In this document: piece by piece, positions 1-23,970 of the stretch
Numbering within the stretch: the stretch's first letter is position 1
How the letters are laid out: the number at the start of each line of letters is the position of its first letter
Assembly (NCBI RefSeq): GCF_000321225.1
Contig: NW_004451504.1
Coordinates: 1-64,000 of the forward strand
DNA from: Odobenus rosmarus divergens
Lineage: Eukaryota; Chordata; Mammalia; Carnivora; Odobenidae
Direction of reading: 5' to 3'
DNA: 64,000 bases
Made by a program: the position numbers and the translations under genes
The notes under the pieces: generated by a model
What the model was told of the DNA's origin: nothing
What the model saw: only the letters and a program-made list of their open reading frames with translations
The model's database searches: none

Positions 1-105
1 AACAGACCAGGGGGATAGAGGACAGGGAAGGCAGGGTGGCAGGGGGCACATGAGCCTCAAGGAGAAGGTAGGCGAAGGAAGGAAGGAAGGAAGGAAGGAA
101 GGAAG

Positions 106-350
106 GTGGGGATATTGTGAGCAGAGGGACAAGCAGTGCAAAGATCTTAAGGTAGGAGCCCGCCAGGCAACCAAAGAAGTACGCCAGTGTGGCTTACGTG
201 GGGGGAGCAAGGGGAAAATAGGAGAGGACAGCCAGGTAACACGGGAGGAACACACTAAGCAGAGCCCCACAGGCCACTTCAGGACTCTGACATTAGCAAA
301 AGGGGAAACATGCTTTTACAAGATTTGGGGACATGTATTATGCTTGGTTT
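106..350. other. Untouched stretch near the left edge
   Basis: Four consecutive grid positions (131, 186, 241, 296) are not overwritten here, so 245 bases of original sequence survive. I recognise no gene or repeat family in it. Bases 1-75 before the first block are likewise unremarkable. Confidence 0.6.
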
Positions 351-550
351 AGGAAGGAAGGAAGGAAGGAAGGAAGGAAGATTCGACAGATAGAAAGACA
401 GACAAAGGAAGGAAGGAAGGAAGGAAGGAAGGAAGAGAAGCAGGCTCTCCGCCGAGCAGGAGGAAGGAAGGAAGGAAGGAAGGAAGGAAGCTGGGATCAT
501 GACCCAAGCCGAAGAAGGAAGGAAGGAAGGAAGGAAGGAAGGAAGGCCCC
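351..550 (-). mobile_element. CanSINE remnant, overwritten by the comb
   Basis: Surviving 25-mers at 381-405, 436-460, 491-515 and 546-570 follow the minus-strand CanSINE order: pyrimidine-tail side, the GAAGCAGGCT block, the GATCATGACC block, then the GCCCC head end at 546-550. The blocks at 461-490 and 516-545 occupy exactly the lengths that an intact copy (57,295-57,497) has at the equivalent places, 57,408-57,437 and 57,463-57,492. Confidence 0.85.
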
Positions 551-1535
551 TATGCTTGCATTTTAATTCAAGGAAGGAAGGAAGGAAGGAAGGAAGGAAG
601 CTGAACACGAGTCAAGAATTCTCCTAGGAAGGAAGGAAGGAAGGAAGGAAGGAAGACATGTTTGATATTTTTTGCTAATGAGGAAGGAAGGAAGGAAGGA
701 AGGAAGGAAGTCCATAGGCTAAACTATGTGAGCCTGTTATAAATTCAAAATCTTCAGTGCTTCTGTAGTGCCTTTGTCACTAATGTCACCAGGAAGGAAG
801 GAAGGAAGGAAGGAAGGAAGGCTTCCATTCCTAAAAAGTAGAGCCAGGAAGGAAGGAAGGAAGGAAGGAAGGAAGTAATGTAAGTAATTTAGTAGTGCTA
901 AGGAAGGAAGGAAGGAAGGAAGGAAGGAAGGGAAATATAAAAATTTTACTATGCTAGGAAGGAAGGAAGGAAGGAAGGAAGGAAGGAGTTCCATGCAATT
1001 CTGTATTATTAGGAAGGAAGGAAGGAAGGAAGGAAGGAAGTTTGCTTGACAAATATTTATGCTGAAGGAAGGAAGGAAGGAAGGAAGGAAGGAAGACAAG
1101 GATAAAGCAGTGAACAGACAAGGAAGGAAGGAAGGAAGGAAGGAAGGAAGATTTAAGATAGAGAAACTGTTAAAAAGGAAGGAAGGAAGGAAGGAAGGAA
1201 GGAAGAAGTGCTAAGGCAAAAAATAAAGTAAGGAAGGAAGGAAGGAAGGAAGGAAGGAAGTAAAAGATAATCTGGTAAAGCCTTAAGGAAGGAAGGAAGG
1301 AAGGAAGGAAGGAAGAACACAGTGAGGGAAGCTGGCCATGAGGAAGGAAGGAAGGAAGGAAGGAAGGAAGAAGGGAGCAGCAAGTGCAAAGGCCCAGGAA
1401 GGAAGGAAGGAAGGAAGGAAGGAAGAAGCCAAAGTGGCAAGGAGGTGGGTAGGAAGGAAGGAAGGAAGGAAGGAAGGAAGCACTAGCTGATGTCAGAGAT
1501 ACAAAAGGAAGGAAGGAAGGAAGGAAGGAAGGAAG

Positions 1536-1780
1536 CACAGGCCACTCACTCTAAGGACACTGACTTTGGATCTCAGGGAGATGGGAAATCCTGGGAAGGT
1601 TTTGCACAGAGAAGTAGCATGCTTTGGCTTACATTTTCAAAGGCTAGCTCTGGTGAATCCATCAAACATATTGGATGGGGGCAAAACAAAAACAGCTACC
1701 ACTTACTACAGTGGTGTTGCTATTGGAAAAACCAATGACTGGCATTAATCCTTCCTAGATAATAAGAATGTCAATTTTTT
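1536..1780. other. Untouched block inside the comb
   Basis: Grid positions 1561-1726 are skipped, leaving 245 bases of normal sequence. A short open frame here is not supported as coding, and no repeat family was recognised. Confidence 0.5.
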
Positions 1781-4700
1781 AGGAAGGAAGGAAGGAAGGA
1801 AGGAAGGAAGAGAGGGGTACAGAATAACCTAAGAGAGGAAGGAAGGAAGGAAGGAAGGAAGGAAGACTACCGTCCCTCCACCCCCCAAACAGGAAGGAAG
1901 GAAGGAAGGAAGGAAGGAAGTATTAGTGACAGATGGTCTAGGAAAAGGAAGGAAGGAAGGAAGGAAGGAAGGAAGTGAGCTCTATCTTTACAACAATTTA
2001 GTTCACCAGAATCAGAATATTTAATATTTGAACTCCTTTATTCCAAAGGCATTTATGAAACACCTCCAAAATATGTGCCAGAAACTGATGCTTGGAGCTG
2101 GAAACGCACAAGGAAGGAAGGAAGGAAGGAAGGAAGGAAGGCTGCATTTACCTTCATGTAGAAACAGGAAGGAAGGAAGGAAGGAAGGAAGGAAGCAGCT
2201 TCAAACAAGGATCAATAAAAAGGAAGGAAGGAAGGAAGGAAGGAAGGAAGCTCTGATACAACTATTTATTAAAAAAGGAAGGAAGGAAGGAAGGAAGGAA
2301 GGAAGAAACTCTGTTGGTTTCAGGGCAAGGAGGAAGGAAGGAAGGAAGGAAGGAAGGAAGTTTTAAGATAGGAAGATCTCTGAAAAGGAAGGAAGGAAGG
2401 AAGGAAGGAAGGAAGCCAGCAAGTTCAGAGCAAAATTATAAGGAAGGAAGGAAGGAAGGAAGGAAGGAAGGCAGCAGCTCTGAGTCCCGGCTACGCATGG
2501 CAATTGCCAGCAGAACTCTGAAAACAGAAAGGGCCTCTTCCACAAGAGCCAGGAAGGAAGGAAGGAAGGAAGGAAGGAAGAGGAGGTGATACACGGACTG
2601 GACCAAGGAAGGAAGGAAGGAAGGAAGGAAGGAAGTCTACGTTCAGTCACTCATTTTCAAAGGAAGGAAGGAAGGAAGGAAGGAAGGAAGGTATAAGAGG
2701 GTGTCAATAAAAGCTAGGAAGGAAGGAAGGAAGGAAGGAAGGAAGAACAAATTAGTGAATGAATGATTCAAGGAAGGAAGGAAGGAAGGAAGGAAGGAAG
2801 TCCCATCCCCTCATATCCCAGATCAAGGAAGGAAGGAAGGAAGGAAGGAAGGAAGTGGGATTAAAAAGTAATTACATGTTAGGAAGGAAGGAAGGAAGGA
2901 AGGAAGGAAGGTAAGTCAAAGAATAAAAGCAAACAAGGAAGGAAGGAAGGAAGGAAGGAAGGAAGACCTCTTTTGCTAAATTACATCAGGAGGAAGGAAG
3001 GAAGGAAGGAAGGAAGGAAGATTCTCTTACAAATGAGCCAGCTAAAGGAAGGAAGGAAGGAAGGAAGGAAGGAAGCTAAGAAATCATCTAAAAAATAAAA
3101 AGGAAGGAAGGAAGGAAGGAAGGAAGGAAGCCAATCAGACCAAGGGTCTTCATATAGGAAGGAAGGAAGGAAGGAAGGAAGGAAGACTGTAAGGATATCC
3201 ATAGAATAACAGGAAGGAAGGAAGGAAGGAAGGAAGGAAGAAAAACCTGTGACAAAGGAAGGTTAAGGAAGGAAGGAAGGAAGGAAGGAAGGAAGAATCA
3301 GTCCCCCTGGTCTCACTCTGAGAACCAGGCATATCAATATAAGTAGGAAAAGCATTCACGGCTGTATGGTACCTGAGGAAGGAAGGAAGGAAGGAAGGAA
3401 GGAAGCAGCACAACCATCCATGAGCATACAAGGAAGGAAGGAAGGAAGGAAGGAAGGAAGAAATTCATAGGCTTATTCCTGAAAAACATTAAGCTAACTC
3501 AAACTGTGACACCATCTTTGGAAGCAATTGTCACACTAGTAGGAAGGAAGGAAGGAAGGAAGGAAGGAAGAGGTGAAGACTCACGCTTCTAATTCAGGAA
3601 GGAAGGAAGGAAGGAAGGAAGGAAGAAAAATTTCTTCCTAGTCAGAATGTAGGAAGGAAGGAAGGAAGGAAGGAAGGAAGTTACACTATAACATTTTTTG
3701 GTACAAGGAAGGAAGGAAGGAAGGAAGGAAGGAAGAAGTGTATTTCCTCAACTTTAATTTAGGAAGGAAGGAAGGAAGGAAGGAAGGAAGAGGAGCACTA
3801 ACTGCAGAATTAATTAGGAAGGAAGGAAGGAAGGAAGGAAGGAAGTTCAAACATAAGGGCAGGAGGCCTTAGGAAGGAAGGAAGGAAGGAAGGAAGGAAG
3901 ATCCGGTGAGGTCCTGCTGTGCACCAGGAAGGAAGGAAGGAAGGAAGGAAGGAAGAAGATCCATCCCTGGAGTCCTAACAAGGAAGGAAGGAAGGAAGGA
4001 AGGAAGGAAGTTCCAGTAACATTCATTCGTCCTACAGAGAGCAGACGCTGGGTACTTCCTGCTCTGCCCATACAAAGGCATGACATCTAAAGGAAGGAAG
4101 GAAGGAAGGAAGGAAGGAAGAAAGGGAGGTGACACACAGGCCCTAAGGAAGGAAGGAAGGAAGGAAGGAAGGAAGTGTTAAGCAAACACTGAAACTGTTC
4201 AGGAAGGAAGGAAGGAAGGAAGGAAGGAAGAATATGTTTATACAGCACTTAGCATAGGAAGGAAGGAAGGAAGGAAGGAAGGAAGCCATTAGTTTTCCTA
4301 TTTGAGGACAAGGAAGGAAGGAAGGAAGGAAGGAAGGAAGATTCCCTGGGTGTTCACATTTAAATAGGAAGGAAGGAAGGAAGGAAGGAAGGAAGTTATA
4401 TATTCTTGTGGCAGGGCGCGAGGAAGGAAGGAAGGAAGGAAGGAAGGAAGTAAATTAGGATGACCAAATAGTCCGAGGAAGGAAGGAAGGAAGGAAGGAA
4501 GGAAGAAAAGTCTTCATGAAAACATAAAAGAAAAACTTTAAAGAGTCCCAGAGACAAGAAGGTTTTTCGAGACCACAAAATAGAACAGTCAAGCCATACT
4601 GTTTGACAAATTAAAAATTCTCCACAGGTTAAAAGTAGCATAAACCCGAAAGACAAATGAAAACAACATATAAAACATGATAAAAGGCTAATTTTAGGAA

Positions 4701-5029
4701 GGAAGGAAGGAAGGAAGGAAGGAAGAAAAAAGGACAAAAACCCAACAGAAAGGAAGGAAGGAAGGAAGGAAGGAAGGAAGCACAGAAAAAGAAATACAAA
4801 AGGCTAGGAAGGAAGGAAGGAAGGAAGGAAGGAAGAATCCATACAAAGTAGAGAAGCAGTAGGAAGGAAGGAAGGAAGGAAGGAAGGAAGTTCAACAATT
4901 ATTCACACAAGGCCAAGGAAGGAAGGAAGGAAGGAAGGAAGGAAGACCCCTGCAGACGGTTTCAAAGTAAAGGAAGGAAGGAAGGAAGGAAGGAAGGAAG
5001 ATTCTTCTGTTACTTTTTTAAAAATAGGA

Positions 5030-5235
5030 AGGAAGGAAGGAAGGAAGGAAGGAAGTGGTTAAGCGACCGCCTTCGGCTCAAGGAAGGAAGGAAGGAAGGA
5101 AGGAAGGAAGCCCGCATCAGGCTCCCTGCTCAGCGAGGAAGGAAGGAAGGAAGGAAGGAAGGAAGCCTCTCATGCTCTCTATCTCATCCTAGGAAGGAAG
5201 GAAGGAAGGAAGGAAGGAAGATAAATAAAAATATA
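5030..5235 (+). mobile_element. CanSINE remnant, overwritten by the comb
   Basis: The 25-mers at 5056-5080, 5111-5135 and 5166-5190 match, in order, the TTAAGCGACCGCC head, the GGCTCCCTGCTCAGC core and the CTCTCATGCTCTC tail of the intact SINE at 59,276-59,476. The comb blocks at 5081-5110 and 5136-5165 correspond to exactly 30 bases each in that copy (59,320-59,349 and 59,375-59,404). An A-rich tail follows at 5221. Confidence 0.88.
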
Positions 5236-5440
5236 GTCACTAAATATCATCACATCTAACAAAATTGACAATCGTTCTGTGATATCATCTAGTAACAAGT
5301 TTAAAGACTCCCTAATTGTCTCAAGAAGTGTCTCCTTATAGCTGATTTTTTACTTAGGAAGGAAGGAAGGAAGGAAGGAAGGAAGCTTTAATAGACAAAT
5401 GCCACCTCCCAGGAAGGAAGGAAGGAAGGAAGGAAGGAAG

Positions 5441-5630
5441 TTTGTCCCCCTTTGTGAATTTCCCCCTTTGTGAATTTTGCTGATTGGGTCCCTCTACTGT
5501 CACTGAATGTGTTCCCCAACATCTTTTGTTACTGTTGTTGCTCAAACTGCTCTGTCATCAATCTGGTGTCAGTGCCCTTCAGTGAACACCAGGAACACAC
5601 CTACAGTGAAACCAGTTGGGAGAACACATT
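5441..5630. other. Untouched block inside the comb
   Basis: Three skipped grid positions (5466, 5521, 5576) leave 190 bases of unremarkable sequence. It includes a short direct repeat of TTTGTGAATTT (about 5451 and 5468). No gene is recognised. Confidence 0.5.
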
Positions 5631-6870
5631 AGGAAGGAAGGAAGGAAGGAAGGAAGGAAGAAGAGAATGTTAAAAAGAATCTATTAGGAAGGAAGGAAGG
5701 AAGGAAGGAAGGAAGGGGGAGAACCTAAGGAAGCAGGAGTAGGAAGGAAGGAAGGAAGGAAGGAAGGAAGAATTCTATGACTGGGTATGTCAGGGAGGAA
5801 GGAAGGAAGGAAGGAAGGAAGGAAGAGTGGTAAAGCAGCAGCCATCACTCAGGAAGGAAGGAAGGAAGGAAGGAAGGAAGGAGACCTTGGCTTTGTGCCT
5901 GGTTTAGGAAGGAAGGAAGGAAGGAAGGAAGGAAGCTGAGGTATTCTGTGAGATTGCTTACATTTAACCGGAGGACATGGCCTGTCTATGAATGTCAGGC
6001 AGCTTCTGCAGCCAGAGGAAGGAAGGAAGGAAGGAAGGAAGGAAGTGGAAGCCCTTTGGGTTGGCCACCAAGGAAGGAAGGAAGGAAGGAAGGAAGGAAG
6101 GACGTTTTCCTTGCTTTCTAGTATAAGGAAGGAAGGAAGGAAGGAAGGAAGGAAGCTGTCCCAAACCTAAAATTAATCACAGGAAGGAAGGAAGGAAGGA
6201 AGGAAGGAAGAAAATGGATTAGAGACCAAAATCTGAGGAAGGAAGGAAGGAAGGAAGGAAGGAAGTCATTATTTCTAGATCTTTTGAGGGAGGAAGGAAG
6301 GAAGGAAGGAAGGAAGGAAGATACATCACAAGTTTATATCAATATTTCCTGTTCAAACTTAGGATTATAGGTTTTTGCTTAACTTCTTTGCCTTTATATT
6401 AGGAAGGAAGGAAGGAAGGAAGGAAGGAAGCCAAACAACATTAACCTAAATATTTAGGAAGGAAGGAAGGAAGGAAGGAAGGAAGAATTTTGTAAAACAT
6501 TTACATTTCCAGGAAGGAAGGAAGGAAGGAAGGAAGGAAGCTAGCTTTCATTCTCCAGCCTTCCTGTCCTTTCCCTCCATGTAACTGCTTTTATTAGTTT
6601 TTAGTTTATCCTTCATTTTTAGGAAGGAAGGAAGGAAGGAAGGAAGGAAGTCTGCATCACCTGTGTCTTAGGTTAAGGAAGGAAGGAAGGAAGGAAGGAA
6701 GGAAGACCATGATTTCTTTCACTAACACTAAGGAAGGAAGGAAGGAAGGAAGGAAGGAAGGCTTCATTAATAAAATGCAAAATAAAGGAAGGAAGGAAGG
6801 AAGGAAGGAAGGAAGATCACATTTTTAAGCTATCGGATTAAGGAAGGAAGGAAGGAAGGAAGGAAGGAAG

Positions 6871-7060
6871 GACTGGTAGGAGTACCAGGCCCATCAATTT
6901 AGCATTAGCTACCAATATGTTACATACACAGCCCTAGGGCTCAGTCCACTTCTGGCAATTTGTCCTATAGGTACACTCACATCCTGTCAAATGTATGTGA
7001 AAATTAACGAAGGGAAACCTCACTAAAGTGGAGTCAGGAGGCTAGAAGGGGCAACCATAC
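6871..7060. other. Untouched block inside the comb
   Basis: Grid positions 6896, 6951 and 7006 are skipped. The 190 bases show no recognisable gene or clear repeat family. Confidence 0.5.
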
Positions 7061-7824
7061 AGGAAGGAAGGAAGGAAGGAAGGAAGGAAGAATTAACAGA
7101 CCCAGCAGAAGAATGAGGAAGGAAGGAAGGAAGGAAGGAAGGAAGCCCACAGGGAAAGATGTACATTGCAAGGAAGGAAGGAAGGAAGGAAGGAAGGAAG
7201 CTCAGCCACTGAGAAACCTCAGCACAGGAAGGAAGGAAGGAAGGAAGGAAGGAAGTCGCTCAGAACACCCTCTCCCAGCTAGGAAGGAAGGAAGGAAGGA
7301 AGGAAGGAAGTCTCCTTTGTCGGACTAGCCTCTGGAGGAAGGAAGGAAGGAAGGAAGGAAGGAAGAATTCTGTTATTTCTGAATAAATCCAGGAAGGAAG
7401 GAAGGAAGGAAGGAAGGAAGGGTTAACATGTACATGGATATTCACTGCAGCATAATATAACAAAAGACTAGAAACATCCTTAATTTACATCAAAAGTGAA
7501 AGGAAGGAAGGAAGGAAGGAAGGAAGGAAGGAATATGCAATTTAAAAAATGAGGTAGGAAGGAAGGAAGGAAGGAAGGAAGGAAGCCAAGATACAGTTAA
7601 GTGAAAAATGAGGAAGGAAGGAAGGAAGGAAGGAAGGAAGATATGATTAGCACTCGCAGGACTTGTGCAACAATGTACCATGTATATATATAGCATATTA
7701 CTGGTACCCTATATAATCCATTGGTAGCAAAAATGCCTTTGTGGTAGGTTTCGTTTCCATTCTTTATCCTCCTATAGGAAGGAAGGAAGGAAGGAAGGAA
7801 GGAAGACTTTTCAATTAAAACATT

Positions 7825-8017
7825 TTTTTAAGGAAGGAAGGAAGGAAGGAAGGAAGGAAGCAGAGAGAGAAGGAACACAACAAGCAGGAAGGAAGGAAGG
7901 AAGGAAGGAAGGAAGCCCGCTGAGCAGAGAGCCCAACGTGAGGAAGGAAGGAAGGAAGGAAGGAAGGAAGCCTGAGCCGAAGGCAGACACTTAACGACTG
8001 AGCCACCCAGGCGCCCC
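7825..8017 (-). mobile_element. CanSINE remnant with imperfect TSD, overwritten by the comb
   Basis: The minus-strand SINE ends at GGCGCCCC (to 8017). The 25-mers at 7916-7940 and 7971 onward match the intact copy at 37,148-37,340 with exactly 30 bases (37,264-37,293) in place of the block at 7941-7970. An imperfect target duplication, TCAATTAAAAC at 7810-7820 against TCGATTAAAAC at 8018-8028, supports a real ancestral insertion under the comb. Confidence 0.85.
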
Positions 8018-10085
8018 TCGATTAAAACTTTTTTTTTCAATTAAAACATTAGGAAGGAAGGAAGGAAGGAAGGAAGGAAGACTTGTATTACATAAAATAC
8101 CAAGCAGGAAGGAAGGAAGGAAGGAAGGAAGGAAGTGCCTGTGCTCTTTTAACATCAGGAAGGAAGGAAGGAAGGAAGGAAGGAAGGAAGAATTAAAAAC
8201 AGAGCAATCGACTATAGGAAGGAAGGAAGGAAGGAAGGAAGGAAGGCAGACAAGCCCATACCTTTGTGTTAGGAAGGAAGGAAGGAAGGAAGGAAGGAAG
8301 AAGACTATTAACTGAAAGTGAATACAGGAAGGAAGGAAGGAAGGAAGGAAGGAAGTTTATTTTTGCCCAAATAATCCTAAAGGAAGGAAGGAAGGAAGGA
8401 AGGAAGGAAGATACAAGAAAGAATCACTTAACCATAGGAAGGAAGGAAGGAAGGAAGGAAGGAAGACATATAACAATAGCTACCCTCACTATTAAGCACC
8501 TATATGATAGGCTCTATGTTGGCTAATTTAAACGCATTATCTCTAAGGAAGGAAGGAAGGAAGGAAGGAAGGAAGCATTATCCTGACTGCATATAACAAA
8601 AGGAAGGAAGGAAGGAAGGAAGGAAGGAAGTCATGGCTTTTACAACCATAAGTTAAGGAAGGAAGGAAGGAAGGAAGGAAGGAAGATGGAAAATAAAATT
8701 TTTACAAAAAAGGAAGGAAGGAAGGAAGGAAGGAAGGAAGAAGAGAGCACATACTACAGGATAAAAGGAAGGAAGGAAGGAAGGAAGGAAGGAAGTAAAA
8801 TATATGCTTTAATATTACAAAGGAAGGAAGGAAGGAAGGAAGGAAGGAAGGTATAAAAGAGAAAACAGAAATACAAGGAAGGAAGGAAGGAAGGAAGGAA
8901 GGAAGCTCTGCTGAATAAAAAGAATGACTTAGGAAGGAAGGAAGGAAGGAAGGAAGGAAGAAATAAATCACTAATGTAAAGATCTAGGAAGGAAGGAAGG
9001 AAGGAAGGAAGGAAGAAAAAAATATTGACAAATTTAGGGAAGGAAGGAAGGAAGGAAGGAAGGAAGGAAGTTTGAAAAAACAGTTAATAATATATAGGAA
9101 GGAAGGAAGGAAGGAAGGAAGGAAGCTTCAGATTCCAGTGTAAAACCCCGAGGAAGGAAGGAAGGAAGGAAGGAAGGAAGTCAGCATCTGAATGATGGCA
9201 CTCTTAGGAAGGAAGGAAGGAAGGAAGGAAGGAAGAAACCAACTACTCAAAAATCTAAAGGAAAGGAAAGTGCAAATTTCAGCACTGAGTGGTGTTAAGA
9301 GCACTAGACTCTACAAGGAAGGAAGGAAGGAAGGAAGGAAGGAAGCCGTATTACCATTAATTGCATATATAGGAAGGAAGGAAGGAAGGAAGGAAGGAAG
9401 TCTGGAAGTTAGGGACCCTGGTATCAGGAAGGAAGGAAGGAAGGAAGGAAGGAAGAGAAACCAACAGATTTTTCTTAAGAAGGAAGGAAGGAAGGAAGGA
9501 AGGAAGGAAGTACCTGCTGTGAACCTAGACATGGCAGGAAGGAAGGAAGGAAGGAAGGAAGGAAGGTAAAATAACTCGGATTGAAGTCTAAGGAAGGAAG
9601 GAAGGAAGGAAGGAAGGAAGGAAAGAAGCATGGTTCATTTTAGAAAGGAAGGAAGGAAGGAAGGAAGGAAGGAAGATGCTTATTAAACTGAAAAAAATAA
9701 AGGAAGGAAGGAAGGAAGGAAGGAAGGAAGAAAAATAGAACCAGTATGAACTATAAGGAAGGAAGGAAGGAAGGAAGGAAGGAAGCATTTTCCAGTCTAA
9801 GGTATTCCACAATTATGTAGGTTGCCAAGGGAAGCTGTTGCCAAGAGAATGCAAAAGGCTTGAAAAGGAAGGAAGGAAGGAAGGAAGGAAGGAAGAGAAT
9901 GAATGGTCCCTGAACAAAATAGGAAGGAAGGAAGGAAGGAAGGAAGGAAGCAAAAGAATATTTCTAGTTGAAAATAGGAAGGAAGGAAGGAAGGAAGGAA
10001 GGAAGACTCAATAATAAAAAGACAACCCAAAGGAAGGAAGGAAGGAAGGAAGGAAGGAAGATTTCTCCAAAACAGATGTACAAAT

Positions 10086-10258
10086 AGGAAGGAAGGAAGG
10101 AAGGAAGGAAGGAAGCGGCTCAGGTCATGATCCCAGAGTCAGGAAGGAAGGAAGGAAGGAAGGAAGGAAGCTCAGCGGGGAGTCTGCTTCTCCCTAGGAA
10201 GGAAGGAAGGAAGGAAGGAAGGAAGAATAAATAAAATCTTTAAAAAAAAAAGGAAGGA
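10086..10258 (+). mobile_element. CanSINE remnant, overwritten by the comb
   Basis: The 25-mers at 10,116-10,140 (CGGCTCAGGTCATGATC) and 10,171-10,195 (CGGGGAGTCTGCTTCTCC) are spaced as in the intact SINE at 48,714-48,920. The intervening block replaces exactly 30 bases (48,776-48,805 in the intact copy). The AATAAATAAAATC tail lies at 10,226. The SINE head cannot be seen and may be truncated. Confidence 0.8.
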
Positions 10259-10440
10259 AGGAAGGAAGGAAGGAAGGAAGATGGCAGTAATCATTAGGGA
10301 AATGAAGGAAGGAAGGAAGGAAGGAAGGAAGGAAGCACTCACAAAGATACAAACAAAAAGAGGAAGGAAGGAAGGAAGGAAGGAAGGAAGGGAGATCTGA
10401 ACCCACCTACAGTGCAGGAAGGAAGGAAGGAAGGAAGGAA

Positions 10441-11065
10441 GGAAGCTGGGAAACAATTGGGCAGTTCTTTAGGAAGGAAGGAAGGAAGGAAGGAAGGAAG
10501 ACAGCATGTCTAGTGGTAGGTACATAGGAAGGAAGGAAGGAAGGAAGGAAGGAAGCAAAAACTTGTACATAAATGTTCATAGGAAGGAAGGAAGGAAGGA
10601 AGGAAGGAAGGAAACAACTCCAATGCCCTTCAGCTAGGAAGGAAGGAAGGAAGGAAGGAAGGAAGGTACAATGGGATATTACCCAGCAATAGGAAGGAAG
10701 GAAGGAAGGAAGGAAGGAAGAACATGGATGCGCCTGAAAACATTAAGGAAGGAAGGAAGGAAGGAAGGAAGGAAGCCCTATATTTTACAACTCCCAATTA
10801 AGGAAGGAAGGAAGGAAGGAAGGAAGGAAGACAAAAGCAGACTAATAGTTTCCTAGGGCTGTGGGGGGTGAGGAGAGAATGGAGTGACTGCTAATGGCCA
10901 GGAGGTTTCTAGGAAGGAAGGAAGGAAGGAAGGAAGGAAGGATTATGACAATAGTTGCTGTCCCCAGGAAGGAAGGAAGGAAGGAAGGAAGGAAGCCTTA
11001 AATGAGTGAATCGTAGGGTAAGGAAGGAAGGAAGGAAGGAAGGAAGGAAGAGAAGTTAATGAGAA
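10441..11065 (+). mobile_element. L1 3'-end remnant, overwritten by the comb
   Basis: The 25-mers in order resemble the end of L1 ORF2 and the adjacent 3' region: AAACAATTGGGCAG, CTTGTACATAAATGTTCAT, GAAACAACTCCAATG, ACAATGGGATATTACC. Against the usual L1 consensus recalled from memory, the block at 10,581-10,610 replaces 30 bases. No reading frame survives. Confidence 0.6.
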
Positions 11066-11460
11066 GAAAAATGTGGTATCAAGGATAATAAAGGAACAAT
11101 ATAGCTACACTGGAGTTACACTGTTTTATGGAAACAAAACTTTACCTTCTGAAAGAAGGGTAGAAATTACCCCAAAGCAGGCCTCTAAGAACACACAGGA
11201 ACCAGCAAATGACAGATTTCCTGTTCTGTCATCCAGGTGGAGGAAGGAAGGAAGGAAGGAAGGAAGGAAGTAGTGTGTAAACCTGGTATTCAAAGAGGAA
11301 GGAAGGAAGGAAGGAAGGAAGGAAGGATGCTCCAGAGGGAGACTGCCTAGATGAACTCACTGGTCACAAACAACTTCTGATGATTCATGAAACTCTACAC
11401 CTTATCTGTGACTCTTAGAAGTTCAAGTAGAAACTAAAGTAAGGGGCAAGTATAAAGAAC
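11041..11460. other. Sparsely overwritten stretch, no gene seen
   Basis: Skipped grid positions at 11,076-11,186 and 11,351-11,406 leave two longer original stretches separated by blocks at 11,241 and 11,296. Neither shows a recognisable coding or RNA feature. Confidence 0.45.
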
Positions 11461-12505
11461 AGGAAGGAAGGAAGGAAGGAAGGAAGGAAGCTGGTGTCCT
11501 GAACCACAGCTTACTAAAACAGAATAATGAGTTCCTGGCAGGGGACAAAAAATACCAAGAAGATCAGAAGAGGAAGGAAGGAAGGAAGGAAGGAAGGAAG
11601 ATCAAAAAAGCTGTGTTTCATCAGTAGGAAGGAAGGAAGGAAGGAAGGAAGGAAGATCACTATTGGTGATAGCAGAAAGCAGGAAGGAAGGAAGGAAGGA
11701 AGGAAGGAAGTTCAGATCTAAGAAGAGTCTAACAAGCCTAAATAAAACTGTAGGACTAGATAGAATGATCTAACAAACCAGAGCTAGAATAGGAAGGAAG
11801 GAAGGAAGGAAGGAAGGAAGTCCTTTTACAGATGAAGCTGAAGCCAGGAAGGAAGGAAGGAAGGAAGGAAGGAAGAAGGTGCATGAAAGGTTAGGTTAAG
11901 AGGAAGGAAGGAAGGAAGGAAGGAAGGAAGTGTGTCCACCTGACCCAATGCTACCAGGAAGGAAGGAAGGAAGGAAGGAAGGAAGAGGGGGGGGAGGGTG
12001 GAGAGGATCTAGGAAGGAAGGAAGGAAGGAAGGAAGGAAGCAATTCCTGGAGACTCAGACCTAAAAGGAAGGAAGGAAGGAAGGAAGGAAGGAAGACATA
12101 AAAAAAAAAATCTTCATGACTGGGGCAGCAAAAGTAAACAGGTCATAAAAAGCACTAACCACAAAGACTGATAAGAGGAAGGAAGGAAGGAAGGAAGGAA
12201 GGAAGTCATCAAAAGACACGTTACAAGAGCAGGAAGGAAGGAAGGAAGGAAGGAAGGAAGTTTTACAATTCATATATTCAACACAGAATTCATATCCAGG
12301 ATATATACAAACCCCAATATTTCAATAAGAAAATGACAACAGGAAGGAAGGAAGGAAGGAAGGAAGGAAGAACAGTCACTCTGCAACACAGGATAAGGAA
12401 GGAAGGAAGGAAGGAAGGAAGGAAGGCTCAAATCACTTATCAAGGAAATGAGGAAGGAAGGAAGGAAGGAAGGAAGGAAGCAAATACGGAATGGTTAAAA
12501 AAAAT

Positions 12506-12687
12506 AGGAAGGAAGGAAGGAAGGAAGGAAGGAAGAAGCGTCTGCCTTCTGCTCGGTCATAGGAAGGAAGGAAGGAAGGAAGGAAGGAAGGAAGCCTGCT
12601 TCTCCCTCTCCCACTCCCCCTGCTTGTGTTCCCTCTTTCACTGTGTCTCACTCCATCAAATAAATAAATAAAATCTTAAAAAAAAAT
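12506..12687 (+). mobile_element. CanSINE remnant with internal length discrepancy
   Basis: The head-side 25-mer at 12,536-12,560 (AAGCGTCTGCCTTCTGCTC) and the intact tail from 12,591 (GAAGCCTGCTTCTCC to the A-rich end near 12,687) identify a CanSINE. The single block between them (12,561-12,590) is 30 bases, whereas the intact copy at 48,714 has about 50 there. The ancestral copy may have carried a 20-base deletion. Confidence 0.8.
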
Positions 12688-12744
12688 CTAAATATTTAAA
12701 TGACAGTACCAAGTAGACGCAAGACAGGAAGGAAGGAAGGAAGG

Positions 12745-13005
12745 AAGGAAGGAAGTAGTTGGAGTATAAATTGGTACAACAGGAAGGAAGGAAGGAAGGA
12801 AGGAAGGAAGCCATCAAAGCTGAAGATACATACACAGGAAGGAAGGAAGGAAGGAAGGAAGGAAGCCAACCAAAATGAATATATACGTGAAGGAAGGAAG
12901 GAAGGAAGGAAGGAAGGAAGCAGCATTATTCATAACTGCTCCAAAAGGAAGGAAGGAAGGAAGGAAGGAAGGAAGAGTGGATAAATTGTGGTATATAATT
13001 AGGAA
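12745..13005 (+). mobile_element. L1 3'-end remnant, overwritten by the comb
   Basis: Surviving 25-mers such as GGAGTATAAATTGGTACAAC, CAGCATTATTCATAACTGC and GGATAAATTGTGGTATAT occur in the order seen at the end of mammalian L1 ORF2. The intervening text is comb. The element is identified by motif order only. Confidence 0.6.
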
Positions 13006-15670
13006 GGAAGGAAGGAAGGAAGGAAGGAAGATTCTGACACCTCTCTCAGAAAGACAGGAAGGAAGGAAGGAAGGAAGGAAGGAAGAGGCAGGCCTGTATC
13101 TATTTCAACCAGGAAGGAAGGAAGGAAGGAAGGAAGGAAGTCAAGAATAAGTCACTCTCAGGAAGAGGAAGGAAGGAAGGAAGGAAGGAAGGAAGGAAAA
13201 CCCAAGGCCTAGTGGAGAATAGGAAGGAAGGAAGGAAGGAAGGAAGGAAGCAGATGATCCTCATCTTTGAGACATAGGAAGGAAGGAAGGAAGGAAGGAA
13301 GGAAGGGAACCTCTAAATGATTCTAGACCAAGGAAGGAAGGAAGGAAGGAAGGAAGGAAGGCCCACCAAATCCCTGACCCACAGAAGGAAGGAAGGAAGG
13401 AAGGAAGGAAGGAAGCCCCCACTAAGTTTGGAGTGGTGCAAGGAAGGAAGGAAGGAAGGAAGGAAGGAAGAGCTGCCAAAAAACAACAAACTACAAGGAA
13501 GGAAGGAAGGAAGGAAGGAAGGAAGGCATAACGGAAGCTTGGTAAGAAGGATTAGATATGGTAAAATTCCACTTAGTGGGCAAAACTAAGCTATAATAAT
13601 ATAAGAGGAAGGAAGGAAGGAAGGAAGGAAGGAAGATTACTGGAAAGAGGCACAGTAAGGAGGAAGGAAGGAAGGAAGGAAGGAAGGAAGTGCTCTGGGT
13701 TGTGGTGATTTCAGTAGGAAGGAAGGAAGGAAGGAAGGAAGGAAGAGCTAGATCCTAAATATTCGTGCTCAGGAAGGAAGGAAGGAAGGAAGGAAGGAAG
13801 AAAAATTTTTTTTGAATCAGTAGAACTTGGTAATTCAAATAGATGCAAGAGTGTGAAGAAGAACTGAGGATGACTAATTTAGGAAGGAAGGAAGGAAGGA
13901 AGGAAGGAAGAACTGAACAGTTAAACGATAGGGCAAGGAAGGAAGGAAGGAAGGAAGGAAGGAAGTCCTATTCATTTTGTATTCAAGTATAGGAAGGAAG
14001 GAAGGAAGGAAGGAAGGAAGCCTCCAAGACACTCCTCTCATTTTCAGGAAGGAAGGAAGGAAGGAAGGAAGGAAGATCTTTTCTTCCTTCCTTTCTCGTA
14101 AGGAAGGAAGGAAGGAAGGAAGGAAGGAAGTTCCATCTTAATCCCCTTTGCAATCAGGAAGGAAGGAAGGAAGGAAGGAAGGAAGCACCGCCCTCGCTCC
14201 TGTATTTTCAAGGAAGGAAGGAAGGAAGGAAGGAAGGAAGTTTTAAAAGAAACTTCCAAGTCAACAGGAAGGAAGGAAGGAAGGAAGGAAGGAAGAATAA
14301 AAAAAAAATTTAACAGGATAAGGAAGGAAGGAAGGAAGGAAGGAAGGAAGTAATGCCTGAGAACAGGATGAAGAAAGGAAGGAAGGAAGGAAGGAAGGAA
14401 GGAAGACCCAAGTTTGATGTATGATGTGGTAGGAAGGAAGGAAGGAAGGAAGGAAGGAAGAACAAAGTATGTAGAAGAAAGGTATAGGAAGGAAGGAAGG
14501 AAGGAAGGAAGGAAGGCTAAACAAGAGATGCGACTCTATTAGGAAGGAAGGAAGGAAGGAAGGAAGGAAGGCATTCAATTCTAAGCACTACAGTTTAAAA
14601 ATGGAATTAAATCAAAAGAAAGCCATCAATGTGGTGAAATGACATGAAATAGGAAGGAAGGAAGGAAGGAAGGAAGGAAGGAGATGTCTCAAGAAGACTG
14701 AGAAAACTTGATGACCATCTTCAGGTATTTGAAAAAACATTATACAGAACAGAGACACCACTTGTTCTAAGTGTCTCCAAAAGAAAGAATTGGGTAGGAG
14801 AAACAATAAAGAAGAAGGAAGGAAGGAAGGAAGGAAGGAAGGAAGACTTGATTAAAAACAGGATCAGCTGAGGAAGGAAGGAAGGAAGGAAGGAAGGAAG
14901 GATTTTGTCCCCATGGCCAGGGATGAGGAAGGAAGGAAGGAAGGAAGGAAGGAAGCCTGCCCCAACTAAGAATGACCCATAGGAAGGAAGGAAGGAAGGA
15001 AGGAAGGAAGTGATGTAATGTATGGTGGTTAACAAAGGAAGGAAGGAAGGAAGGAAGGAAGGAAGTGCAAGTATGAACTCATGGTTTTCAAGGAAGGAAG
15101 GAAGGAAGGAAGGAAGGAAGTAAATATAATTGTGAAAAAAAAAAAAGGAAGGAAGGAAGGAAGGAAGGAAGGAAGGGTGAAAAACCTGCTCTAGAGGTAG
15201 AGGAAGGAAGGAAGGAAGGAAGGAAGGAAGATAGACCAGACAATGTGCTAATATTCAGTACATGACTTTTAAAAAATGGTGGGGGATGAGCTGAAAGAAG
15301 ATTTCCTGTTAGGAAGGAAGGAAGGAAGGAAGGAAGGAAGAGGTATGTTAAAGCAACGATGATGGAGGAAGGAAGGAAGGAAGGAAGGAAGGAAGACATT
15401 ATACCAAGTAATTCAGACACAAATTTCACAGTTAATTCTCACAGCCACCCTGAGATAGGTATTATTTTACTTTGAAGGAAGGAAGGAAGGAAGGAAGGAA
15501 GGAAGCATACAGGGGTTAACATTTGAACCCAGGAAGGAAGGAAGGAAGGAAGGAAGGAAGCTGTCCAAAGCACAAACATTAAATGAGGAAGGAAGGAAGG
15601 AAGGAAGGAAGGAAGAATGAAGCAGCACATATTCTAGCAGAGGAAGGAAGGAAGGAAGGAAGGAAGGAAG

Positions 15671-15860
15671 TCACTGCAAACCTAGCTGGCTAGAAGAAAG
15701 AGGAAAGGATTATTTGAAGTAGTCCTATGATGAAGGAGAGAACAATTATCCTGATTGTCCCCAATTGCCTACTTCTGTAAGAGCCAAGAAGCTCTTATAT
15801 CCACGGAATCTCAGTCAGAAGATGAAATTAATGATGACATCCCTTTATCCATAGGCGTGA
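15671..15860. other. Untouched block inside the comb
   Basis: Three skipped grid positions (15,696-15,806) leave 190 bases of original sequence. A short open frame runs from 15,755 into the next comb block but has no recognisable protein similarity and is not called. Confidence 0.45.
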
Positions 15861-16025
15861 AGGAAGGAAGGAAGGAAGGAAGGAAGGAAGCCCGACTGGG
15901 AATCCTGCCCTTAACAGGAAGGAAGGAAGGAAGGAAGGAAGGAAGTGGCTGCCTATACTCCCGCCCATCTGTCAGGATGGCAGTGTGCCTGCTCACATGT
16001 TGGTCAAACTGTCACTAGGGCATAG

Positions 16026-17155
16026 AGGAAGGAAGGAAGGAAGGAAGGAAGGAAGGCTTGCATAGCAGTGTAAGAGCTTGAGGAAGGAAGGAAGGAAGGA
16101 AGGAAGGAAGATAATACTGAAGAGTTGCAATCACAAGGAAGGAAGGAAGGAAGGAAGGAAGGAAGTCAGTGGGAAAAACATCTAGACTGGAGGAAGGAAG
16201 GAAGGAAGGAAGGAAGGAAGTTATATCAAACAGGAAAGGTACTTTAGGAAGGAAGGAAGGAAGGAAGGAAGGAAGCACTGCCAATCTTTCATTAACACAC
16301 AGGAAGGAAGGAAGGAAGGAAGGAAGGAAGTGCTCAAGAAGTCATCATTGTTTTAAGGAAGGAAGGAAGGAAGGAAGGAAGGAAGCTAAGTAAAAAAGCA
16401 GAAATGCGTTAGGAAGGAAGGAAGGAAGGAAGGAAGGAAGCTATTTGTTGGGTGATTATTTTTTAAGGAAGGAAGGAAGGAAGGAAGGAAGGAAGAATCT
16501 TTTAAATGCAAGAAAGGAGAAGGAAGGAAGGAAGGAAGGAAGGAAGGAAGGAAAAAAGTATAATTTGTTCAGAGAAGGAAGGAAGGAAGGAAGGAAGGAA
16601 GGAAGAAACAAAAACTGAGTAATTTGGGTCAGGAAGGAAGGAAGGAAGGAAGGAAGGAAGGTCCCTGTCACATCCCCCTGACTAAAGGAAGGAAGGAAGG
16701 AAGGAAGGAAGGAAGCCTATTCTGGCCTTAAAGATCTTTTAGGAAGGAAGGAAGGAAGGAAGGAAGGAAGTATTGTCTGGAAATTCTTCCAGAGTAGGAA
16801 GGAAGGAAGGAAGGAAGGAAGGAAGTTTGGAACATGTGTCCTTGTTTAGCAGGAAGGAAGGAAGGAAGGAAGGAAGGAAGCACTCTCTGTAGAGTTCTTC
16901 ATACAAGGAAGGAAGGAAGGAAGGAAGGAAGGAAGCGAGACTCTTCTCTGCCGTGATTAAAGGAAGGAAGGAAGGAAGGAAGGAAGGAAGAGACCAATTT
17001 ATTAACTCTTTATGCAGGAAGGAAGGAAGGAAGGAAGGAAGGAAGCCTTCAGGCTTGATAAGAAATGTCAAGGAAGGAAGGAAGGAAGGAAGGAAGGAAG
17101 CTCTCCTTCCCACATGTAAAATGTAAGGAAGGAAGGAAGGAAGGAAGGAAGGAAG
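16026..17155 (+). repeat. Longest uninterrupted run of the comb
   Basis: Grid positions 16,026 to 17,126 are all filled, 21 in a row, so only 25-base islands of original sequence remain. Nothing longer can be identified beneath. Confidence 0.85.
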
Positions 17156-17485
17156 AAGTGCAGCAGAGTTCTCTTTGCCAAAGACAGTGGCAAAAGTCTG
17201 AAATCTACCATGATTCTCCTAGAAAATACTAGGGAAGGAAGGAAGGAAGGAAGGAAGGAAGGAAGCTTTCCAGTAGACATCCTGACACAAAGCGCTAAGT
17301 CAAGGGCTATGGTTATACCCTGTTCTTCCTTGTGAACCTGTTATCGCCACATAGGGCCTACAACAACCTCTATGAATGCCCATTTCTACTGGATCATTTT
17401 CCTGCTCAAGAACCGCAGGAGCAAATGAAACCAATTACAGACTCTATAATCTAGCAGGAAGGAAGGAAGGAAGGAAGGAAGGAAG

Positions 17486-18555
17486 TTCATCTTCCTTCTC
17501 CCCTTCACTTACCTGCTCCCTAAAACAGCCAGTTCTTATTTTTTCTAGGACTTGTCTTTGCTCATGCTATTCTCTAAAATGTTTTCCCACTCCTCTCAAA
17601 TCTGTACATACTTATTTAAGACTCAAGCCATGTCATACTTTCATAAATCTGTATTAATTTTCATACTTCATTGCACACTCACTTCCTGTCTTCATTTTGG
17701 TATGAAGTTTACCATGTATGGCCAATTGATTTTTTTTTTAATAAAGGTAAAATATGATTCAATGAAGCAAGGGCAGTTTTTTCAACTAATGGTTTTGGAA
17801 CAGTTGGACATCCAAAGGCAAAAGGAAAAGAAAAACAAAGACCGAAGACCTAAACCTCATATCCTGTGCAAAAATTAACCCAAAATGGATCATAGATCTA
17901 AATGTAAGGCATCAAATTATAAGTATCTTTCTGACCTAGGATTAGATAAAAGAGTTCTGACACATGCATGATGCCAAAAACAACCCACATATCAGTAAGC
18001 TGGACTTCATCAATTAAAATCTTTTGGACTACAAAAGACAGTATAACAGACGAAAAGACAATCCACAGACTGAGAGAATATATTTACAAATCACTTATCT
18101 GGCAAAGCACTTGTATTCAGGATATACAAAGGACACTCTAAAATCAACAGTAAGAAAACAAACAATCCAATCACAAAATGGGCAAAAGATATACGAACAG
18201 ACGAGTCACAAAAAAGATAGACATACCAAAAAAGATAGATGTTCAACAACATTAGCCATTAGGGAAATGCAAATTAAAGCCATGAGGAGATACTACTGCA
18301 CACCTATTATCATGGCTAACATAAAAAATACTGCCAACCCCAAATGCTGGTGAGAATGTGATGAAGCTTCATCTCTCATAGAGTGATGATAGGACTGTAA
18401 AATGGTACAGCTACAGTGGAGACGTTTGGCAGTTTCTTAAGTTAAACATTCACTTACCCCACAACCCAACATTCGCACTCCTAGGCATTTATCCTATAAG
18501 AATAAAAACATATTCACACTAAAACCTGTACATGGACACAGGCTTCTGGTTATGG
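17486..18555 (+). mobile_element. Untouched 1.07-kb block with old L1 ORF2/3' fragment
   Basis: Nineteen consecutive grid positions (17,511-18,501) are unfilled, the largest window of original DNA in the comb. From about 17,740 it follows the end of L1 ORF2. Recognisable blocks include ATGGATCATAGATCTAAATG, TCATCAATTAAAATC, GGGAAATGCAAATTAAAGCC and GGCATTTATCCTATAAG. Stop codons and frameshifts break the frame, so it is a dead fossil. The L1 appears to continue under the comb to about 18,940: CTTCAGTGGGTTAATGG at 18,812 sits where a 30-base replacement predicts. The first 250 bases are of unclear origin. Confidence 0.75.
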
Positions 18556-19190
18556 AGGAAGGAAGGAAGGAAGGAAGGAAGGAAGAAGGAATATAGTTAG
18601 TAATGTAACAAGGAAGGAAGGAAGGAAGGAAGGAAGGAAGTTGCGCAGGTAGCAGAATGCATACAAGGAAGGAAGGAAGGAAGGAAGGAAGGAAGTAATG
18701 TAACATTGTGTCAACTATATAGGAAGGAAGGAAGGAAGGAAGGAAGGAAGGAACGTGAATGTTCATAGCAGTTTTAGGAAGGAAGGAAGGAAGGAAGGAA
18801 GGAAGCACAGCTCCTTCAGTGGGTTAATGGTTAAATAAAATGTGGGTGAGCCATACACTGGACAAGCACAGTACTACTGGCAAAACCAGGAAATTGTCAT
18901 TGATACAGTATTAGTAATTAAACTACTTATTCGAATTTCAAGGAAGGAAGGAAGGAAGGAAGGAAGGAAGATAGTCCTAGGACAGTTCATCATGTAGGAA
19001 GGAAGGAAGGAAGGAAGGAAGGAAGGATACAGAACTGTTACTACACAGAAAGGAAGGAAGGAAGGAAGGAAGGAAGGAAGCCACCACCACTCCCAGCCCC
19101 AACCCAGGAAGGAAGGAAGGAAGGAAGGAAGGAAGAATTTTATCACTTCAAGAATACTATAGGAAGGAAGGAAGGAAGGAAGGAAGGAAG

Positions 19191-19570
19191 TGAGATTAGC
19201 TTTTTTCACTCAGTACGATGCCCGTTAAGCTCCACCCAAACTGTCGCACGTCGACAATATTGTTCCTTTTTATTATAAATGGGTGTTCCATTATATGGCT
19301 AGACCACATTTTATTTAACCATTTAAGGAAGGAAGGAAGGAAGGAAGGAAGGAAGGGTTTTGGCTATTATAAAAAAACCTAGGAAGGAAGGAAGGAAGGA
19401 AGGAAGGAAGTGAATAAGTTTTCATTTCTCTAGGAAGGAAGGAAGGAAGGAAGGAAGGAAGGAAGATGTTTAGCTTCTTAAGAAACTGCCAGGAAGGAAG
19501 GAAGGAAGGAAGGAAGGAAGTTTACATTCCTACCAGCAGCATGAGAGGAAGGAAGGAAGGAAGGAAGGAA
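19191..19570 (-). mobile_element. L1 fragment on the minus strand, partly overwritten
   Basis: The stretch from about 19,200 (TTTTTTCACTCAGTACGATG, then a GTTCCATTATATGGC block) and later 25-mers (GGTTTTGGCTATTATAA, AAGTTTTCATTTCTCT, TTAAGAAACTGCC, TTTACATTCCTACCAGCA) follow the reverse complement of the L1 ORF2 end in order. The spacing fits replacement to within one or two bases at the slots I could judge from memory. Confidence 0.65.
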
Positions 19571-21665
19571 GGAAGTAAAATATTTTCTAAAGGCCTAAAA
19601 AGGAAGGAAGGAAGGAAGGAAGGAAGGAAGTAACCTGACTTAGCTTGCTAAAAAAAGGAAGGAAGGAAGGAAGGAAGGAAGGAAGCCTCTAACAAAAAAT
19701 GTATACTTAGATATAACCCCTTTGTTGCTAGCTCTGTTACCATATTATACAGTAAACTGCAATAAAGGAAGGAAGGAAGGAAGGAAGGAAGGAAGAAACA
19801 GTACAAGTTTGTTTCTATGTAGGAAGGAAGGAAGGAAGGAAGGAAGGAAGTTTAACAGCACTTTCCAACTCCTAGAGGAAGGAAGGAAGGAAGGAAGGAA
19901 GGAAGACATGGTATCATCAAACAATGGCACAGGAAGGAAGGAAGGAAGGAAGGAAGGAAGGAGAAAAGCAATTAATCTGAAATAAAGGAAGGAAGGAAGG
20001 AAGGAAGGAAGGAAGCATGATTTTTTTTAATTTTAAATATAGGAAGGAAGGAAGGAAGGAAGGAAGGAAGTTGGGTTCTTAAAACAAGGAGCTAGCTGTG
20101 GAGCAGACATCCACGTGCAAACAGCAGTAAGACAGCCAGTCTACAAAGAGAGGAAGGAAGGAAGGAAGGAAGGAAGGAAGTTCCCCCAAAAGAGTGGGAG
20201 GCAGGAGGAAGGAAGGAAGGAAGGAAGGAAGGAAGCAGTTCTTAGGTCCCTTGTGGGACCAGGAAGGAAGGAAGGAAGGAAGGAAGGAAGTTCTTTCCAA
20301 TAAAATATGCTATTTAGGAAGGAAGGAAGGAAGGAAGGAAGGAAGAATCTCCCAACTAATAACCTTGCAAAGGAAGGAAGGAAGGAAGGAAGGAAGGAAG
20401 TCCCACTTAAGGTATATGGCTTTATAGGAAGGAAGGAAGGAAGGAAGGAAGGAAGAATATTCCCCCTAAATATTAGCCAGTGTTAACAGTGTCTATCTTA
20501 ATTTTCAAATCCTAGAGTACTGGTTCCCATCCAATAGGAAGGAAGGAAGGAAGGAAGGAAGGAAGACTACAAAGAATCATCAAAGTCCATGTATCCACAT
20601 AAAGACTAAAGAAACAATATAATTCACACTGTGTTTTTCCAAGTTAGGAAGGAAGGAAGGAAGGAAGGAAGGAAGAATAAATTTACTGGAGAATGCTACT
20701 AGGAAGGAAGGAAGGAAGGAAGGAAGGAAGTGATGAATAGTAAAAATCTAACTCTTACTGGGAGGGAAGGGCACACCTCATCCCTCTCTAGGCTCTCTAG
20801 AGATTGTTCCAGGAAGGAAGGAAGGAAGGAAGGAAGGAAGAGAGTAGTAGACTGTGCTTGGTTTCAGGAAGGAAGGAAGGAAGGAAGGAAGGAAGGCTGG
20901 GGCAGGAGGAATTGGGAAAGAGGAAGGAAGGAAGGAAGGAAGGAAGGAAGAATGCTAGGTAAACAGCATTCAGGAAGGAAGGAAGGAAGGAAGGAAGGAA
21001 GGAAGCCCTCTTCTCATATTTACAATGCCAAGGAAGGAAGGAAGGAAGGAAGGAAGGAAGAAGGGGCCAAATGTATTCTAGAATAAGGAAGGAAGGAAGG
21101 AAGGAAGGAAGGAAGGTTCTGTCACCTTTCTAAACTAATAAGGAAGGAAGGAAGGAAGGAAGGAAGGAAGAAATTTATCAATAACAGTGTAGTTTAGGAA
21201 GGAAGGAAGGAAGGAAGGAAGGAAGGTTGTGCGCTGGATGCTAGACAACGAGGAAGGAAGGAAGGAAGGAAGGAAGGAAGAAACAAAGAAAACGTGTTTA
21301 AACACAACACTCCAATGGCAAGAAGAGACTATATCCAGCTAGCCCAGTTCCTGACATACAAGGAAGGAAGGAAGGAAGGAAGGAAGGAAGATGAGTCTAT
21401 TTCTGCTCACTCTGAAGGAAGGAAGGAAGGAAGGAAGGAAGGAAGCTACCAGTCCAAAAAATACTCTCCAAGGAAGGAAGGAAGGAAGGAAGGAAGGAAG
21501 ACCCACCAAAACCAATTTGCATGAAAGGAAGGAAGGAAGGAAGGAAGGAAGGAAGTAATTCCCTTTAGGTTCACTGCCTGAGGAAGGAAGGAAGGAAGGA
21601 AGGAAGGAAGGCATAAATTTAGGACTCATCCTTCAAGGAAGGAAGGAAGGAAGGAAGGAAGGAAG

Positions 21666-22075
21666 GTAAGTTTTATTTTTCATATCAAAAATCCTTTCAA
21701 AATTTTATTTTTCAATTCAAAATTCTATTCATGGTACACTGTATCTTATTAGGGATGACTTTAAGGCAAAAATATACAGTTATCAAAATAAACTCTTATT
21801 TTTTCTTTTCTAGACATCTAAGACATTCACTTACATATTTATTATTTCACATTAGTTCTCAAATACAAAAAAAAAAGTGGCCTATTTAAGAAATTTTAGG
21901 GTCTGTCAACATTTGGAATGTACTGCTGGTTTTAAATATACACTTGCATCCTGGAATAAAACTTAGCCTAAGCTTTCCACAGAACCATTTCCTGGGCACT
22001 TAGTAACTTATTCTATGCCAGGTTCTATGCTTGACACATTACTCCATTATCCCATTTGTTTAACAAATAACCTCT
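21666..22075. other. Second-largest untouched block inside the comb
   Basis: Seven grid positions (21,691-22,021) are skipped, leaving 410 bases of AT-rich original DNA. It contains a near-duplicate pair AAAATTTTATTTTTCAATTC / AAAATTCTATTC around 21,700. No gene or confidently named repeat was recognised. Confidence 0.5.
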
Positions 22076-22570
22076 AGGAAGGAAGGAAGGAAGGAAGGAA
22101 GGAAGACTACACTATAAACCTGATATCTGTAGGAAGGAAGGAAGGAAGGAAGGAAGGAAGACTTCACACAAGTTTTTTGTTATTAAGGAAGGAAGGAAGG
22201 AAGGAAGGAAGGAAGAATCGGATCAGCAATGTTGAGATGCAGGAAGGAAGGAAGGAAGGAAGGAAGGAAGCAGAGAAAGCTATTATTAGGTGACTAGGAA
22301 GGAAGGAAGGAAGGAAGGAAGGAAGGAACATAACCTTATCTATCCAGAAATTTAATTCCAATTACTACATGCCATTTTGAACAGCATAATCTAAATAAAA
22401 TGATTATATAAAGAACCCTAGCTTCCCTCTGAAATTGCTTTAAAACTGTAGATTAAATTCAGGAAGGAAGGAAGGAAGGAAGGAAGGAAGAAGGTGTTTT
22501 GATTCTGAACTCTGAAGGAAGGAAGGAAGGAAGGAAGGAAGGAAGTTCAGGCTCAAAAGATAGGCAATTT

Positions 22571-22712
22571 AGGAAGGAAGGAAGGAAGGAAGGAAGGAAG
22601 GAAGGAAGGAAGGAAGGAAGGAAGGAAAGAAGGAAGGAAGGAAGGAAGGAAAGAAGGAAGGAAGGAAAGAAGGGTGGAAGGGTGGGTGGGTGGGGGGAGG
22701 GAGGGAGGATGG
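22571..22712 (+). repeat. Genuine interrupted GGAA microsatellite
   Basis: GGAA units run from 22,571 to about 22,672 with natural interruptions (GAAAGAAGG near 22,626, 22,650 and 22,668), then decay into GGGTGGAAGGGTGGGTGG and GGGAGGGAGG to 22,708. Unlike the comb blocks it is imperfect, so it looks native. Its phase equals that of the comb, and the last comb slot (22,571) merges with its start. It is the right-hand limit of the comb. Confidence 0.85.
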
Positions 22713-23956: not shown

Positions 23957-23970
23957 CCGGCGCTGCCGCT

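Follow-up and report, generated by a model that had tools for sequence, protein, structure and literature searches.

In the parts of the HiCanu paper considered here (PMC7545148), coverage dropouts and contig breaks of high-fidelity (HiFi) reads at A/G-rich simple repeats are described, as are errors in the repeat counts of microsatellites. The present analysis concerns a different irregularity involving such sequence, namely a regular series, or 'comb', of identical 30-base GGAA-type blocks at the start of a contig from Odobenus rosmarus divergens. The window, meaning the whole stretch of DNA that was analysed, comprises the first 64 kb (64,000 nucleotides) of contig C1185 (642,937 bases), in an assembly of 2,377,615,816 bases and 2085 contigs. 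An identical template repeated at fixed pitch is observed at three places in this one assembly, and these are called comb 1 (in the window), comb 2 and comb 3. We conclude, with a probability of approximately 0.94, that the combs are a recurrent computational artefact of assembly rather than a property of the animal. They are not a biological array.

The main feature of the window is as follows.
76..22600, plus strand: comb 1, consisting of 309 identical 30-base blocks (AGGAAGGAAGGAAGGAAGGAAGGAAGGAAG) at positions 21 + 55k, with 25-base ordinary stretches between them and 101 slots unfilled, located by exact match.

A preliminary description of this DNA had reported about 300 identical 30-base GGAA blocks at 21 + 55k. 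Exact matching of the 30-mer (AGGAAGG...AAG) bears this out, yielding 319 occurrences in the window, 309 of which fall on the lattice (k = 1 to 410) between 76 and 22600. The other 10 lie off the lattice, four as in-phase extensions of blocks and six in the tail of a microsatellite. Each of the 410 slots holds either an exact block (309) or natural sequence (101), and there are no near-matches, as expected from the earlier statement that the blocks do not vary. Likewise, all 30 columns are invariant when 308 of the blocks are tabulated. The bases that flank a block on either side are ordinary, and therefore the block length is 30. The 25-base intervals, said earlier to be all different, are indeed distinct from one another in 410 of 410 cases. 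Autocorrelation at lag 55, which the preliminary description had proposed as a check, is 0.522 in the comb compared to a median of 0.308 for lags 1 to 399, and it drops to 0.273, a background level, once the blocks are masked. Pairs of blocks separated by exactly 25 bases occur 258 times, as opposed to zero times in 100 shuffles. The lattice shows no drift across 22.5 kb and is keyed to coordinates, not to sequence. The word 'strict' used for this comb is apt for the regular lattice but not for its occupancy, as evident from the fact that about a quarter of the slots (101/410) are empty and that these are clustered.

Comb 1 terminates on a tract of the same simple sequence.
22571..22672, plus strand: GGAA-type microsatellite ending comb 1, perfect from 22571 to 22627 and imperfect to about 22672, with its start at slot k = 410; read from the sequence.

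The first 30 bases of this microsatellite are the comb 1 block, and the tract runs on in phase on the same strand. Its perfect part is 57 bases long and the tract as a whole is imperfect, unlike the exact blocks. The last block of the range given earlier does sit on the lattice, but it is also the head of this perfect tract rather than an isolated block. It could be a paste over the tract head, and the tract past 22600 is in phase either way. The GGAA phase of the blocks remains constant from slot to slot although 55 mod 4 equals 3, which implies that one template was pasted anew at every slot. If the locus had instead been interwoven with a single long GGAA sequence, the phase would rotate by 55 mod 4 at each step; it does not, and this alternative is rejected. 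Just past the microsatellite, the region from 23400 to 24000 is rich in GC and CpG and looks promoter-like by eye, with no gene identified there. No match to phages was obtained with window positions 22601 to 24000.

Whether blocks were added to the locus or written over it was judged by placing successive 25-base intervals on intact copies of short interspersed nuclear elements (SINEs) and of L1-like elements, and then comparing their spacing with the pitch. For SINEs, 2 of 5 intact reference copies were used. The relevant segments are listed below.
381..515, minus strand: SINE overwritten by blocks, with intervals 436 and 491 lying 55 apart on intact copies (interval placement).
5056..5135, plus strand: SINE overwritten by blocks, with intervals 5056 and 5111 lying 55 apart on intact copies (interval placement).
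7861..8018, minus strand: SINE overwritten by blocks, with intervals 7861, 7916 and 7971 lying 52 and 55 apart on intact copies (interval placement).
10116..10250, plus strand: SINE overwritten by blocks, with intervals 10116 and 10171 lying 55 apart and intervals 10171 and 10226 lying 78 to 80 apart, across a variable tail (interval placement).
12591..12686, plus strand: SINE segment that spans an empty slot and is continuous, 72 to 92% identical to intact copies, serving as an unblocked control (alignment).

Six pairs of intervals separated by a block could be placed on intact SINE copies, where the spacing is 55 for four, 52 for one and 80 for one (the variable tail). When all 308 block-separated pairs were compared with the rest of the window and the fetched loci, 16 matched. 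Their modal spacing is 55 (6 pairs), 12 of them fall between 51 and 58, and the other four are spaced 39, 67, 77 and 78; none is near 25. Intervals therefore lie about one pitch apart on intact copies, and some 30 true bases have been lost at each filled slot. Blocks of comb 1 stand in place of approximately 30 ordinary bases; they are not insertions. This spacing rules out a transposon-like insertion that adds blocks to the locus. Repeat searches with blocks masked and with blocks deleted did not discriminate, because they returned similar lists (41 versus 50 rows), and interval placement decided the matter instead. The SINE at 10171 to 10250 has a tail some 23 to 25 bases shorter than those of intact copies (78-80 versus 55), through a natural deletion or a local error.

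Comb 1 is not confined to one copy of the record, as evident from a separate genome copy of contig C1185 that bears the same comb and agrees at all readable letters over the first 30 kb. The search of the assembly covered GGAA-type combs in certain phases and block lengths. When the block is required to be isolated, with a boundary on each side, the readable genome has 181 forward and 10 reverse occurrences; 160 belong to the 22.5-kb comb in the window, compared to about 31 across all other readable sequence of the 2.38-Gb assembly. The control pattern for this search was itself lopsided (130 forward versus 15 reverse), and searching it revealed comb 2. Strand imbalances further pointed to a comb on the minus strand whose block would be 32 bases long, and a forecast of about 300 matches was written before the result of that search, which gave 507 reverse versus 31 forward matches, with contig C176 accounting for 92 of 100 among the matches listed. 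The two additional combs have the following properties.
Contig C206, about 542.9 to 575.9 kb: comb 2, with a 29-base block (GAAGG...AAGG) at pitch 42, in the interior of a contig of 3,294,957 bases, located by pattern search.
Contig C176, 1,593,955 to between 1,650,500 and 1,655,001 (56.5 to 61 kb), opposite strand: comb 3, with a 32-base block at pitch 58, in the interior of a contig of 4,595,189 bases.

All 261 readable slots in the fetched stretches of comb 2 are exact, and no slot that was read is empty. Its left end is unreadable; blocks are seen from about 542.9 kb onward, with none up to 533.4 kb. At its other end, the comb stops at 575,886 on an uninterrupted GGAA tract that starts at a lattice slot and of which at least 40 bases are readable. 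The first seven intervals that can be read align to an intact L1-like copy with a spacing of 42 and offsets of 0, 0, 0, 0, -1, +4 and +4; three of the seven were used to pick this copy, leaving four that are independent. Because these intervals are collinear with the L1-like copy at the pitch of the comb, comb 2 also replaces sequence. The other 19 of 26 intervals have no collinear match on that copy. A scan of interval triples gave 53 matches with only 6 at spacing 42, and it is weak, since intervals of 13 bases find matches at many spacings when the sequence is simple. Replacement and termination at a GGAA tract are directly observed at combs 1 and 2 only.

Comb 3 was sampled at 114 slots, of which 96 are exact, 18 are natural and none is a near-match. 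Its lattice changes phase twice in the stretches read, once by +1 between 1,621,273 and 1,621,390, and once by 46 mod 58 (-12 or +46) between 1,630,728 and 1,630,890. Both shifts lie within natural sequence that spans one or more empty slots, one with a run of 15 T nucleotides and the other with a (CT)n run. Poly-T and (CT)n runs are places where polishing commonly alters lengths. Since the phase shifts occur only across unfilled sequence, the comb was probably written onto a previous draft, which later underwent partial repair.

Other searches yielded no additional combs. A search for left boundaries in another GGAA phase came out near balance (516 forward versus 463 reverse), and a search of the assembly for a 31-base minus-strand comb found none. 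No comb was present in the 27 readable stretches of 40 sampled at contig ends (39 starts and 1 end, each 1.5 to 3 kb, with 13 consisting entirely of N). Comb 1 is at a contig start and combs 2 and 3 are interior, which together with the empty contig-end samples argues that contig ends are not the cause. An effect of contig ends, in the manner of HiFi dropouts located there or at A/G-rich sequence, likewise fails for two of the three combs. The same lattice gave 0 matches in the viral_contigs and genome_contigs collections, neither of which is a mammal collection. Rfam models gave 0 matches in the window. In contig C2085 (16,565 bases), the first 2 kb match the models for tRNA and for small and large rRNA, and this contig is probably the mitochondrial genome.

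The empty slots of comb 1 form 102 runs (slots 0 to 410), compared to 154.4 +/- 7.6 when shuffled. The longest empty run covers 19 slots, from 17511 to 18530, and corresponds to the feature below.
17486..18555, no strand assigned: longest natural stretch within comb 1, 19 empty slots, with one full-length genome match (itself).

This stretch of 1070 bases finds 46 other matches, all partial L1-like copies; a concealed intact copy of the locus elsewhere in the assembly is therefore rejected, because the stretch fully matches only itself. An old L1-like segment (17775 to 18536) has been left natural here inside the comb, and its main genome matches are 68 to 74% identical. No convincing sequence rule separates filled from empty slots in 1008 k-mer tests (best p = 0.00027, uncorrected), and neither position nor flanking composition is a convincing predictor (smallest positional p = 0.069). 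Partly within another empty slot, at 5445 to 5477, a 16-base unit (TCCCCCTTTGTGAATT) occurs twice, exactly and head-to-tail.

These observations are best accommodated by a mechanism in which, at a draft stage of assembly, the first 30 or so bases of a GGAA microsatellite would be written over neighbouring sequence. The overwriting would proceed at a fixed, locus-specific pitch (55 at comb 1, 42 and 58 at the two other loci) and would extend for tens of kb in the 5′ direction, as defined by the GGAA strand. Subsequent correction or polishing of the draft might then restore the true sequence in some slots, and restored slots would also regain their homopolymer and dinucleotide lengths, giving the phase shifts of comb 3. 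GGAA tracts probably seed the overwriting, and the copying step would precede polishing, an order of events that rests on the two comb 3 shifts. We speculate that block and pitch would both be constant if tiling had reused a buffer or word of fixed size.

Several points weigh against this explanation. The replacement test at comb 3 produced one informative pair only, with a spacing of 47 where 58 was expected. A GGAA tract anchor was seen at two of the three combs, and the low end of comb 3, where a tract is predicted, is unreadable; comb 3 presumably has a tract there as well. None of the 101 empty slots of comb 1 is accompanied by a phase shift. The empty slots follow no sequence rule, and their status as repaired slots is therefore an inference. 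To our knowledge, no program makes such a pattern. No description of the pattern was found among the matches listed in the literature searched, by titles and the starts of abstracts. Finally, the evidence for the artefact comes from assembled sequence and is indirect.

The preliminary description favoured an artefact or an edit over biology, and that preference has been strengthened by the evidence for replacement, by the comb in the separate genome copy, and by the two further combs of other pitch and block length. An edit, whether a watermark or a test plant written into the record by someone, would account for the machine-like regularity of the combs, which no program known to us produces. 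However, the separate genome copy has the comb too, and the two other combs, with different pitches and block lengths and once on the other strand, came to light only by searching. For combs 1 and 2, the end coincides exactly with a GGAA tract, and the lattice of comb 3 shifts at homopolymer and CT runs, as a later correction would make it do. The parameters differ from comb to comb, and for two combs the end on a GGAA tract can be seen; for these reasons a deliberate edit is less likely than an artefact, and we consider it very unlikely.

A real genomic array, in which GGAA units were spread at fixed spacing by some undescribed mechanism, such as repeat-templated conversion or a new mobile element, would agree with the identity of the comb 1 block to the head of the adjoining microsatellite, and with the fact that combs 1 and 2 end on a GGAA tract. 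It would also have to make same-length replacements at a constant pitch, regardless of whether the DNA is SINE, L1-like or single-copy and unrelated, leave no near-match in 410 slots at comb 1, 261 readable slots at comb 2 and 114 sampled slots at comb 3, and vary its pitch between loci. We know of no enzyme that measures 55, 42 or 58 bases over 22 to 60 kb, and the chance that such an array exists is very small. Errors of sequencing chemistry or base calling, in single long reads that form the sole coverage of these regions, are made conceivable by the location of comb 1 at a contig start and by the status of A/G-rich low-complexity tracts as HiFi trouble spots in the parts of the HiCanu paper considered (PMC7545148). 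Such errors should drift in base coordinates, but combs 1 and 2 show no drift; comb 3 is 56.5 to 61 kb long and contig-interior, and none of the 27 readable contig-end stretches among 40 sampled has a comb. A read-level origin is therefore judged highly improbable.

With an artefact of assembly as the preferred explanation, the biological meaning of the combs is nil, and they matter as a problem of data quality. At three places of about 22 to 61 kb each, 55 to 69% of the letters are overwritten in every filled period (30/55, 29/42 and 32/58), and the combs read as ordinary A, C, G and T rather than as a gap. Gene finders, scans for ETS/GGAA motifs, repeat censuses and genome-trained models would accept them at face value. 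We see an even chance that the combs represent a previously undescribed class of assembly corruption, in which a simple-repeat tract gives rise to copies of about 30 bases that overwrite the adjoining tens of kb at a locus-specific pitch before polishing, and that further public genomes produced by this pipeline are affected too. If this is true, those genomes would carry hundreds of false GGAA sites per affected locus, with real sequence destroyed. A scan of lag autocorrelation or of block spacing would suffice to detect such combs.

It was stated in the preliminary description that no known satellite, CRISPR (clustered regularly interspaced short palindromic repeats) array or transposon gives such a lattice, and this point stands. 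Satellite DNA resembles the combs in its regular period, but in a comb only the block repeats. A satellite in which the whole period repeats is rejected on the basis of the 410 distinct intervals and the background level of masked autocorrelation at lag 55. CRISPR arrays resemble the combs in that their repeats are about 30 bases long and are separated by unique intervals of constant length, but the comb repeat is a tetranucleotide run and the host genome is mammal-like. Foreign spacers are also rejected, since successive comb 1 intervals, wherever they can be aligned, follow one another along a single SINE or L1-like copy, with about 30 bases missing between them. A GGAA microsatellite has the motif of the block and forms the tract on which the comb ends, but it is contiguous and variable in length, whereas a comb consists of isolated identical blocks in unrelated DNA. 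The HiFi dropouts in the parts of the HiCanu paper considered (PMC7545148) are alike in that trouble with the assembly is tied to long A/G-rich low-complexity sequence. They differ in that breaks, low coverage and wrong unit counts occur at the repeat itself, whereas the combs overwrite the neighbouring tens of kb.

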